Source: Terriglobus sp. RCC_193 (lineage in GTDB: Bacteria > Acidobacteriota > Terriglobia > Terriglobales > Acidobacteriaceae). From it: a stretch of DNA of 64,000 nucleotides. The notes under the pieces were generated by a model. The model ran no database searches, was not told where the DNA came from, and saw only the letters and a program-made list of their open reading frames with translations. Location: the NCBI RefSeq assembly GCF_041355105.1, contig NZ_JBFUPK010000002.1:620001-684000 (forward strand), in the 5' to 3' direction. The translations under genes were made by a program, and so were the position numbers. Positions 15,985-18,081 of the stretch are shown here, one piece after another; position 1 is the first letter of the stretch, and each line of letters begins with the position of its first letter.

Positions 15985-16209
15985 ATGAACTTCGCACTCG
16001 CAGCACTCCGCGTCTATCGCCGCCTGCTCTCGCCCATGCTGCACAGCACCGGCATCAGCGGCTGCCGTTATACGCCCACCTGCTCAGAGTATGCAGAGGT
16101 GGCCATCGCCCGCTTTGGTCCCTGGCGTGGCACATGGCTTGCGCTGCGCCGCATCGCCCGCTGCCATCCTTTCAGCAAGGGCGGCCTGGACAATGTACCG
16201 CTGGAATAA
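15985..16209 (+). CDS. yidD: membrane protein insertion efficiency factor YidD
   Basis: 74 residues. It shows the family pattern [20 protein letters not shown] and [14 protein letters not shown], with the three conserved cysteines. YidD is a small amphipathic inner-membrane-associated protein that assists YidC. It follows rnpA by 35 bases, but yidC does not follow here; GNAT and CAT-like genes do. Confidence 0.93.
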
Positions 16210-16267
16210 TGCCACTCACAGCGAGTCGCCGCGCAGATACGATGGCTGTAGAAGGCAATCGACGGAT

Positions 16268-16723
16268 ATGACAGCGGAAAACAGAGCCTCTCTGCTCACG
16301 GTACGTCCTCTCACAATCGAGGATGCAGAGACAGTCACCTCTCTCAGCACACAACTCGGTTATCCCTGTGACGCAGTGACAATGCGTGAAAGAATCCACC
16401 GACTGGCAGAGTCGGTCGACCGCATCGCCTTCGTAGCAGTTCTGGAAAATACTGTTGTGGGATGGGCAGACGCCAGTATTGAACGGCATCTGCAATCTCC
16501 TGATGTAGTGGAACTGGGCGGACTGGTGGTGGCGGAAGGCCATCGCGGGCTGGGTATCGGCCGGCGGTTATGCGAAGCAGTTGAGGCGTGGGCCGTACAC
16601 CAGGAAATTCCCCGGGTGCGCGTGCGTTCTCAGATCAAACGGCAGGATGCGCACCGCTTTTATCTGCGCGACGGCTATGAACATATAAAGACCTCTGCGG
16701 TCTTTGAGAAGAGGTTGGATTAG
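16268..16723 (+). CDS. GNAT family N-acetyltransferase
   Basis: 151 residues from ATG 16268. The GNAT fold is visible: VRPLTIEDAETV at the start, VVELGGLVVAEGHRGLGIGRRLC (acetyl-CoA-binding R-G-L-G-I-G loop), and FYLRDGYEHIKTSAVFEKRL at the end. Substrates of this group range from amines to proteins and cannot be predicted here. It ends 5 bases before the next gene, so the two are probably co-transcribed. Confidence 0.87.
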   Translation: MTAENRASLLTVRPLTIEDAETVTSLSTQLGYPCDAVTMRERIHRLAESVDRIAFVAVLENTVVGWADASIERHLQSPDVVELGGLVVAEGHRGLGIGRRLCEAVEAWAVHQEIPRVRVRSQIKRQDAHRFYLRDGYEHIKTSAVFEKRLD

Positions 16724-16728
16724 TCATC

Positions 16729-17358
16729 GTGGAAGCCTGCCGAAAGATTGACCTCACTACCTGGCCGCGCACGGCCCTGTTTCACTTCTTTCAACGCTTC
16801 AGCGAGCCATTCCACAGCGTCTGCATCCGGATGGACTGCACGGAAGCCTTCGCCTATGCCAAGGCGAAGAATCTGTCCGTCTTCCTGACACAGGTGCACT
16901 GTGCTCTTACGGCAGCGCAACACGTGCAGAATTTCCGCACACGCATTCTGAACGGCGAGCCATGGGAATACGAACGGATCAACGCCGGTTGCGCCATTGG
17001 CCGCCCGAACGGCACCATTGGCTTCGCCCACTATCCGTACCACGACAACCTGCATGAGTTCGTGCGCGTCGGTTCGCTGGCCATTGAGGAAAGCAGACAA
17101 CGCACCGACCTGGAACGTCCTCCGGCACAGAATCTCATCCGTTTCTCCTCGCTGCCGTGGCTGGACTTCACATCACTCTCGCATGCCCGCAACTTCGAGG
17201 TGGAAGACTCCGCCCCGCGCATCACCTTCGGCAAGATTACGGAGAATGAAAACCGCAAAACGCTTCCCGTTTCTATCCATGTACATCACGGGTTAGTGGA
17301 CGGATCGCACGTCGGCGAGTTTGTAGACCTGTTGCAACTGCGTTTCAACTCCTTTTAA
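16729..17358 (+). CDS. chloramphenicol acetyltransferase-fold protein
   Basis: 209 residues with a GTG start. It starts KIDLTTWPRTALFHFF, like type A CAT, and has the catalytic HHxxxDG motif (His186, His187, Asp191, Gly192). The length matches trimeric CATs (about 215). Genes of this kind on soil-bacterial chromosomes are often general acyltransferases, so drug resistance should not be assumed without comparison of the substrate pocket. Confidence 0.85.
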   Translation: MEACRKIDLTTWPRTALFHFFQRFSEPFHSVCIRMDCTEAFAYAKAKNLSVFLTQVHCALTAAQHVQNFRTRILNGEPWEYERINAGCAIGRPNGTIGFAHYPYHDNLHEFVRVGSLAIEESRQRTDLERPPAQNLIRFSSLPWLDFTSLSHARNFEVEDSAPRITFGKITENENRKTLPVSIHVHHGLVDGSHVGEFVDLLQLRFNSF

Positions 17359-17506
17359 GCGGCTCAGGAAGCAACAAAATTCTGAACCGCGCGCAAGATC
17401 ATCGCATCTTAACGAGTGCCGAAAAACGCGGAGCCGGCTTGGTAAGCCCGGTTCGCCGCAGTGCCTCCTCATTGCGGTAATGTCACCCTCGGGAGAAATC
17501 GGGGAA

Positions 17507-17625
17507 GGGACCCACGGCGACAAGCAGCAGTGCACGTATGCACTTGCTTACCTGTCGCATGTGTCCCCCTGGGAACGCTCTTTCGGGTCCATGCGACAAC
17601 CACCTGCTAACGGAGGTTTCGCACC
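17507..17625 (+). promoter_or_regulatory. structured 5' leader (candidate riboswitch or attenuator) of the VOC gene
   Basis: Stem 1 spans 17507-17567: GGGA, CAC, GCGACA, AGCA and AGTGCA pair in order with TGCACT, TGCT, TGTCGC, GTG and TCCC around a CGTA loop. Stem 2 pairs TGTCGCATG (17553-17561) with CATGCGACA (17590-17598) and uses the same strand as stem 1, so the two exclude each other. Stem 3 pairs AACCACC (17598-17604) with GGAGGTT (17612-17618) and hides the GGAGG ribosome site 9 bases before the ATG. A further hairpin with GAGCCGGCTT lies at 17431-17454. I do not recognise a known riboswitch class. Confidence 0.6.
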
Positions 17626-18015
17626 ATGCACACACTCAATCACGCCAACCTGACTACGTATGACGTTCCGGCTCTGCAGGCTTTTCTGGAACGCATCTTC
17701 GGACTGCGCACACTGGAAACTCGCGCCGGAAAATTCGCCATTCTGCAGGATGCACAAGGATTTCTGCTGGCGTTGATGTTCGACAAGAACATGACACCAG
17801 AGCACGGATATCCCGGTTTCTTCCACGTGGGCTTTCTGCAGGACACGCCCCGTGCAGTGGACGAATGCCACGCCGCAATCGCACAGGCAGGCTTGAACGC
17901 ACCGGAACCGGCCATGCTGCAACGCGGCGGCCCGCTTACCTATGGCTTCTATGTCAATGCTCCCGGTGGAGTCACAGTAGAGGTGAGCACCATGAACCTG
18001 AGCGACGCGATATAA
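17626..18015 (+). CDS. VOC (glyoxalase/dioxygenase-fold) family protein
   Basis: 129 residues. LNHANLTTYDVPALQAFLERIFGL opens the first beta-alpha-beta-beta-beta unit. PGFFHVGFLQ and PGGVTVEVS give the second with its usual metal-ligand positions (His in FHVGF, Glu in VEVS). Members include glyoxalase I, fosfomycin-modifying enzymes and ring-cleaving dioxygenases; the specific role is unknown. Translation appears controlled by the hairpin that covers its ribosome site. Confidence 0.85.
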   Translation: MHTLNHANLTTYDVPALQAFLERIFGLRTLETRAGKFAILQDAQGFLLALMFDKNMTPEHGYPGFFHVGFLQDTPRAVDECHAAIAQAGLNAPEPAMLQRGGPLTYGFYVNAPGGVTVEVSTMNLSDAI

Positions 18016-18030
18016 AGCGCGCAAATACAG

Positions 18031-18063
18031 AAGGGGTGAGCAGACATCCTCTGCTCACCCCTT
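18031..18063. terminator. bidirectional terminator
   Basis: AAGGGGTGAGCAGA and TCTGCTCACCCCTT form a 14-bp perfect stem with a 5-base loop, followed by TCTGTTCTTG. It lies between the convergent VOC and M28 genes. Confidence 0.88.
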
Positions 18064-18081
18064 TCTGTTCTTGCGATCGTG

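Follow-up and report, generated by a model that had tools for sequence, protein, structure and literature searches.

Upstream of a VOC family gene in the window, by which we mean the whole 64,000-nucleotide stretch of DNA that was analysed, lies a leader that can fold in more than one way, raising the question of whether it is a switch for translation of that gene. The original prediction, made from the sequence, held that TGTCGC at 17553-17558 pairs either with GCGACA at 17517-17522 or with GCGACA at 17593-17598 and that a small stem hides GGAGG (17612-17616), the layout of a translational riboswitch or thermosensor. All four motifs are found at these positions, and the two pairings are mutually exclusive. 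A fold of 17431-17640 has an energy of -84 kcal/mol (z -2.69), equalled by none of 200 shuffles, and the long stem claimed at 17507-17567 is present in the computed fold, with outer pairs 17507-17511:17563-17567. The GGAGG is indeed hidden, but the stem drawn at 17598-17618 is weak alone (-4.9 kcal/mol), and a stem at 17593-17622 (GCGA:UCGC, AACC:GGUU and CC:GG) fits better (-9.5 kcal/mol), so that the downstream pairing of TGTCGC ('stem 2') does not rule out a small 'stem 3'. Likewise the leader is real, but its proposed extent, 17431-17625, is too small and left undescribed a predicted four-helix domain at 17417-17519, in which a closing stem, P1, surrounds hairpins P2-P4 (Table 1). In the unconstrained MFE structure of 17417-17634 (-86.8 kcal/mol), the switch strand S (17553-17558) is paired with 17517-17522 and the Shine-Dalgarno sequence (SD) is hidden within 17593-17622. 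With the domain forced, S instead pairs with S' in nine of nine positions (17553-17561:17590-17598) at -81.2 kcal/mol, i.e. 5.6 kcal/mol above the MFE, a gap that, we infer, a bound ligand could plausibly pay.

Table 1. Features of the VOC gene leader and its surroundings (window coordinates)
Feature	Position	Strand	Basis
Promoter-like stretch: TTCTGA at 17380, CATCTTAA at 17405; inferred transcript start about 17412-17417	17380-17412	+	conservation
P1 5' strand UGCCG; partner 17515-17519	17417-17421	+	fold, 37-copy alignment
Joining stretch AAAAACGCG, conserved, unpaired; AAAAnGGC-like in other copies	17422-17430	+	conservation
P2 hairpin, 17431-17437:17448-17454; loop GGUAAG 17441-17446	17431-17454	+	alignment, fold
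P3 hairpin, 17455-17463:17470-17478	17455-17478	+	both-side changes in 8/8 modelled pairs
P4, 17482-17484:17509-17511 and 17487-17492:17499-17504	17482-17511	+	alignment, fold
CCA joint and P1 3' strand CGGCG (17515-17519)	17512-17519	+	sequence, alignment, conservation
P5 hairpin, between domain and switch strand	17522-17549	+	fold
Switch strand S; partner 17507-17522, or S' (as 17553-17561)	17553-17567	+	folds, duplexes
S' (CATGCGACA); partner S, or its GCGA (17593-17596) with UCGC (17619-17622)	17590-17598	+	folds, helix search
Shine-Dalgarno GGAGG, within stem 17593-17622	17612-17616	+	sequence, fold
VOC family gene, 129 aa; start codon at 17626	17626-18015	+	PF00903, 28.7 bits, cutoff 20.6
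Terminator-like hairpin after VOC gene	18030-18064	+	terminator scan

The domain is conserved well beyond the window. Folding an alignment of five leaders, in which 118 of 232 columns are invariant, gave P1 around three hairpins, and covariation is present at 11, 23 and 37 copies. Pairing holds in 92.4% of 697 cells for 23 sequences of types A, B and C, where 23 of 32 pairs show both-side changes; the 37 sequences of alignment A7 (27 Acidobacteriaceae and 10 plasmid loci, including three type D copies that are outside the 23-copy counts) reach 92.0% of 1110 cells, and both-side changes occur in 25 of 32 pairs. None of 500 shuffles of either alignment reached any pairing measure, and slid controls were paired in at most 47.3% (23 sequences) and 45.9% (37 sequences). 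An example is the third pair of P1, which is UA in 21 copies, CG in 15 and UG in one. It should be noted that the alignments were fitted to the structure, which biases them in its favour, and that related sequences inflate the counts of pair changes. Three unpaired stretches are nearly invariant: AAAAnGGC follows P1, GGUAAG lies in the P2 loop and CCC(A) precedes the P1 3' strand; a possible contact of this loop with CCCA was looked at by eye only. Covariation across homologous leaders had been proposed as a check on the original prediction, and the stems do covary; one criterion for a riboswitch, a conserved, covariation-supported structured domain in a 5' leader, is thereby fulfilled.

By DNA similarity the leader was found in two of 60 other genomes, and VOC orthologues of two further genera also carry it. 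Further copies came from three successive covariance models of the domain (R1, R2 and R3), applied to overlapping sets of genomes and with stricter filters in scans of more than 40 genomes. R1 matched in 13 of 299 genomes of the class, 11 convincingly. R2 matched in 13 of 62 genomes of one other genus, including the first targets other than VOC genes, and in 24 of 398 genomes of the family, of which 20 were judged real. R3 matched in 20 of 398 family genomes, 21 of 38 chosen genomes and 11 of 396 genomes of the phylum, every one of the last from the window's family. A pattern scan of a contig collection gave ten loci, seven of them real and all from Acidobacteria (Edaphobacter, Granulicella, other Acidobacteriaceae or Acidobacteria); the other scans had already found the genomes of two or more of these. 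The window's own genome has one copy, whereas two genomes have three each (upstream of VOC, ABM and MDR genes in one, SDR, ABM and MDR in the other) and one has two (VOC and FAD monooxygenase).

Most copies (34 of 37) score well. The three of type D, at 29-31 bits, score no more than two likely false matches, L044 and L045, and for this reason we call them only probably genuine. L020 and L021 (from R1) and L043-L046 (from R2) were judged false and not aligned; L044 and L045 were left out as lacking both GGUAAG and a frame of at least 80 aa starting within 330 bases. R3 gives 30.7 bits to each of these two and 21.4 bits to L046, which counts against the exclusion. Positions 1501-1586 of L044 and of L045 are the same 86-base hairpin-rich sequence in two genomes, perhaps a repeat element. 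Three actinobacterial pattern matches (L030, L035 and L038) were also rejected; R3 finds nothing there.

Copies also occur on proteobacterial plasmids. In a blastn search, L041, a leader of type B, had matches on 14 plasmid records; in 12 the match spans 76-84% of the query and in the other two it is limited to short pieces. Two other plasmid copies used as queries returned the same 14. R3 confirmed 10 of the 12 records retrieved out of these 14, with E of 1.2e-9 or better, together with a second copy (L086) on one Agrobacterium plasmid; L079 (15 bits) and L080 (no match) were dropped. The confirmed hosts are Pantoea, Caballeronia, Sphingobium, Rhizobium, Agrobacterium and Methylorubrum. No plasmid match was found for the window's leader, one type C leader or one type D leader, no phage match for one type B leader and no E. 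coli match for the Pantoea leader, and neither of two viral contig matches to the type B pattern was supported. Transposase-like frames, presumably of the IS110 kind, lie near the RNA copies at L052 (14893-15489, +; MDR) and L053 (8289-9314, -; FAD monooxygenase), in line with mobility. The Sphingobium plasmid carries, in addition, an unrelated ROSE heat-shock thermometer just upstream of an Hsp20 gene (L074:2069-2162, -; 62.7 bits, gathering score 45).

Every copy is followed at a short distance by a reading frame that has an SD of its own. The 37 target genes are 16 VOC genes, four Tet(X)-like FAD monooxygenases, eight FAD monooxygenases resembling rifampin monooxygenase or PgaE, and three each of SDR, ABM and MDR genes. 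The VOC targets are 44-95% identical to the window's VOC protein, whose nearest solved structure is 1xqa. Stems absent upstream of VOC orthologues would have spoken against a functional leader; in 62 genomes of one genus, 11 have VOC homologues (E 1e-20 or better) and the RNA precedes 10 of these, the exception being the weakest match. The RNA is absent at L008, a 41% identical VOC homologue. A link to VOC genes alone, which make up 16 of 37 targets, was too narrow, as other oxidoreductases and an operon exporter carry the same RNA. In the window itself, the VOC gene is followed by a terminator-like hairpin and is therefore probably alone rather than in an operon. Upstream, a chloramphenicol-acetyltransferase-family gene (16729-17358; PF00302, 72.4 bits) ends about 60 bases before the RNA and is itself preceded by a GNAT acetyltransferase (16091-16723).

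The assignments of the other targets differ in depth. For the four of the Tet(X)/AbsH3 kind, L041 was tested whole and L025 in part, and L047 and L026 (short) were placed by likeness; the nearest NCBIfam model for a Tet(X)-like target protein is Tet(X) (204 bits, cutoff 750). Two of the other eight FAD monooxygenases, L077 and L078, were tested and are nearest to the rifampin monooxygenase model (338 bits, cutoff 800), the remainder being placed by annotation or likeness; comparison of one of the eight with solved structures gave rifampin monooxygenase and PgaE-type oxygenases. At L074 the FAD monooxygenase as annotated begins ahead of the RNA, and a later GTG start was used instead. One of the three ABM targets was tested (PF03992), with anthrone monooxygenase and ActVA-Orf6 among its nearest solved structures, and the three MDR targets, one of them tested, are quinone-oxidoreductase-like. 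At all three SDR copies (one acidobacterial genome, Pantoea and Agrobacterium) the next gene encodes a Tet(A)-like MFS exporter; the Tet(A/B/C) NCBIfam model scores 418 and 421 bits (cutoff 475), and the likeness of the L081 exporter, whose frame ends early, was judged by eye. Since the matches to these resistance proteins are all below curated cutoffs, the names indicate likeness and the substrates are unproven. Frames appear interrupted or shortened at L026 (FAD monooxygenase), L048 (MDR) and L081:3932-4591 (exporter). TetR or attenuation governs the known tet genes, and to our knowledge none is under RNA control of this kind. The targets (oxidoreductases, VOC, exporter) are functionally coherent, as would be expected for a riboswitch. 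From gene context we infer a polycyclic aromatic or quinone-like toxicant as the ligand, since enzymes resembling modifiers of such compounds and a Tet(A)-like exporter are found behind this RNA; we judge the chances of this suggestion to be about even. HxlR-type regulator genes are found near MDR and ABM copies at L052:12584-12919 (-), L056:2335-2763 (+) and L054:5649-6065 (-), with Pfam HxlR matching the first two and the redox MarR-type models RrpA/RrpB the third.

Direct binding of a ligand without a protein is likewise inferred. A redox- or drug-sensing RNA-binding protein on the domain could drive the same strand switch, and the conserved unpaired bases would suit a protein equally well. 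Regulators do occur near some copies, of HxlR type (ABM, MDR) and, at one SDR copy, of TetR type, but they belong to DNA-binding families and vary by locus, and the loci inspected, from two phyla that both keep the domain, share no neighbouring gene. We consider a protein sensor unlikely but cannot exclude it.

Downstream of the domain, leaders of types A, B and C differ in sequence and keep the same order: domain 3' strand, S, S' and anti-SD stretch. In this predicted relay S has two possible partners, S' and the P1 3' strand, and the SD-hiding stem gains strength when S' is left free. Eight to nine of nine S:S' pairs are possible in 12 of 16 type A leaders by scripted count (L017, L018, L019 and L023 gave no full S' match, for at least some of them because the search range ended early). 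By hand count, UCGC follows the SD in 13 of 16, where it can pair with the GCGA of S'. The anti-SD helix of type B varies (e.g. AACCGCUC:GGAGCGGUU and AACUGCUCC:GGAGCAGUU), and type D, without S', differs and shows no clear switch. Compared with shuffled downstream sequence, duplex energies are strong in types B and C and ordinary in several type A leaders; those of the window rank 26 of 200 (P1 3' strand:S) and 13 of 200 (S:S'). When the domain was forced in the 37 leaders, the SD became more open in 18, less open in four and was unchanged in 15 (mean 0.27 vs 0.14), a modest sign of an ON switch that leaves the modelled polarity weakly supported and ON an inference. A riboswitch of opposite sign, with the ligand turning the gene OFF, would fit the four leaders with a less open SD and the window itself, where both states hide the SD almost equally (openness 0.22 vs 0.21) and differ only in the stability of the SD stem. 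However, the 18 leaders behave in the opposite way and induction by substrate suits genes of detoxification and export, making OFF control improbable. Mutually exclusive pairings reaching the SD, a further riboswitch criterion, are met by sequence and energy only, with domain-driven SD opening that is modest.

We also considered where the RNA begins and ends. No promoter came out of a strict sigma-70 scan of the window, and a probable start at P1 thus rests on conservation only: position -10 from P1 is A in 31 of 37 copies (at most 18 at any other position of the tested stretch), and [TC]TGN[AG] is present near -35 from P1 in 18 of 37, vs 1, 4 and 3 in control windows. A start downstream of 17600, which would have refuted the leader, is not indicated by these promoter-like positions just upstream of the domain, though the strict scan is negative. 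The terminator scan found no terminator-like site in the leader, in line with translational control. Leader-peptide-like attenuation is known for some resistance genes, and many copies have an open frame of about nine codons that stops at the UAA of GGUAAG, such that a ribosome stalled on it might open the SD. This is very hard to sustain: the first codon of that frame is ATG, GTG or TTG in only 13 of 37 copies and a stop in one, the commonest start elsewhere is TTG (12 of 37), with frames alike only in their first residues, a transcript beginning at the inferred start would be too short upstream of the nine-codon frame to hold an SD, and P1-P4 covary as stems. With no upstream start codon common to more than 13 of 37 copies, the criterion for an attenuator is not met. 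The thermosensor originally offered as an alternative is not favoured and seems very unlikely. Although the SD stem weakens with heat (-15.4, -12.7 and -9.5 kcal/mol at 15, 25 and 37 C), any stem does so; a thermometer would have no need of so large a domain, whose unpaired bases are nearly invariant in both phyla; heat-shock genes are not among the targets; and the Rfam thermometer families do not match the leader.

In line with the first reading, which recognised no known class, Rfam 15 gave no family match for the window at the gathering threshold or for the leader at E up to 5. Seven further loci (E up to 5) gave only three eukaryotic-type chance matches below the gathering score, one of which, mir-192 on the opposite strand of L017, overlaps the RNA; 11 plasmid loci (E up to 0.5) gave nothing at the RNA. 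A literature search found no such motif, but subscription papers, preprints and supplements were outside its scope, so an earlier report is not excluded; the available portions of PMC11109978, PMC8632094 and PMC7266159 mention neither monooxygenase, tetracycline nor glyoxalase. According to the available text of PMC4793209 and PMC7266159, the yjdF riboswitch candidate may answer to varied planar aromatics and control an exporter-like or detoxification gene. On that partial evidence yjdF (azaaromatic) resembles our leader in the idea of a planar-aromatic ligand and in an exporter or detoxification target, and differs in that the leader has no Rfam match and other target genes. As far as is known, the two also occur in different lineages. 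Guanidine (ykkC), fluoride and NiCo riboswitches turn on genes that counter a toxic compound or ion when the ligand is present, as far as described in the accessible part of PMC7266159; each is alike in this control, inferred for our leader, and differs in domain, in targets and in the lack of an Rfam match here.

Overall, there is good support for a conserved cis-regulatory RNA that combines a sensor-like domain with a translational switch, and the layout first proposed has gained covarying stems, a consistent place before VOC homologues, the lack of an Rfam match and upstream promoter-like positions. The domain, its covariation, the gene context and the alternative strands can be read from sequence; no binding data exist, and we think it likely that the leader is a translational riboswitch, of a class outside Rfam and probably ligand-ON. 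Transcription would start near P1, and a ligand would hold P1-P4 together, barring S from the P1 3' strand; S would then pair with S', the base of the GGAGG stem would be lost and ribosomes could enter. Without ligand, S would invade P1, leaving S' free to pair through its GCGA with UCGC behind the SD, and the VOC gene would be silent. More tentatively, and with the balance somewhat against it, the RNA may directly sense antibiotic-like polycyclic aromatics or quinones of the tetracycline, anthraquinone or angucycline type, inducing drug-modifying monooxygenases and a Tet(A)-like exporter, as a system common to Acidobacteria and plasmids of Proteobacteria. If true, this would demonstrate RNA sensing of antibiotic-like compounds and provide a natural aptamer for biosensors. 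The leader would represent a new orphan riboswitch class with a regulon that points to toxic aromatics and a spread across phyla, partly on plasmids, and the identity of its ligand would reveal the substrates of VOC, ABM and Tet(X)-like enzymes in soil and plant-associated bacteria.
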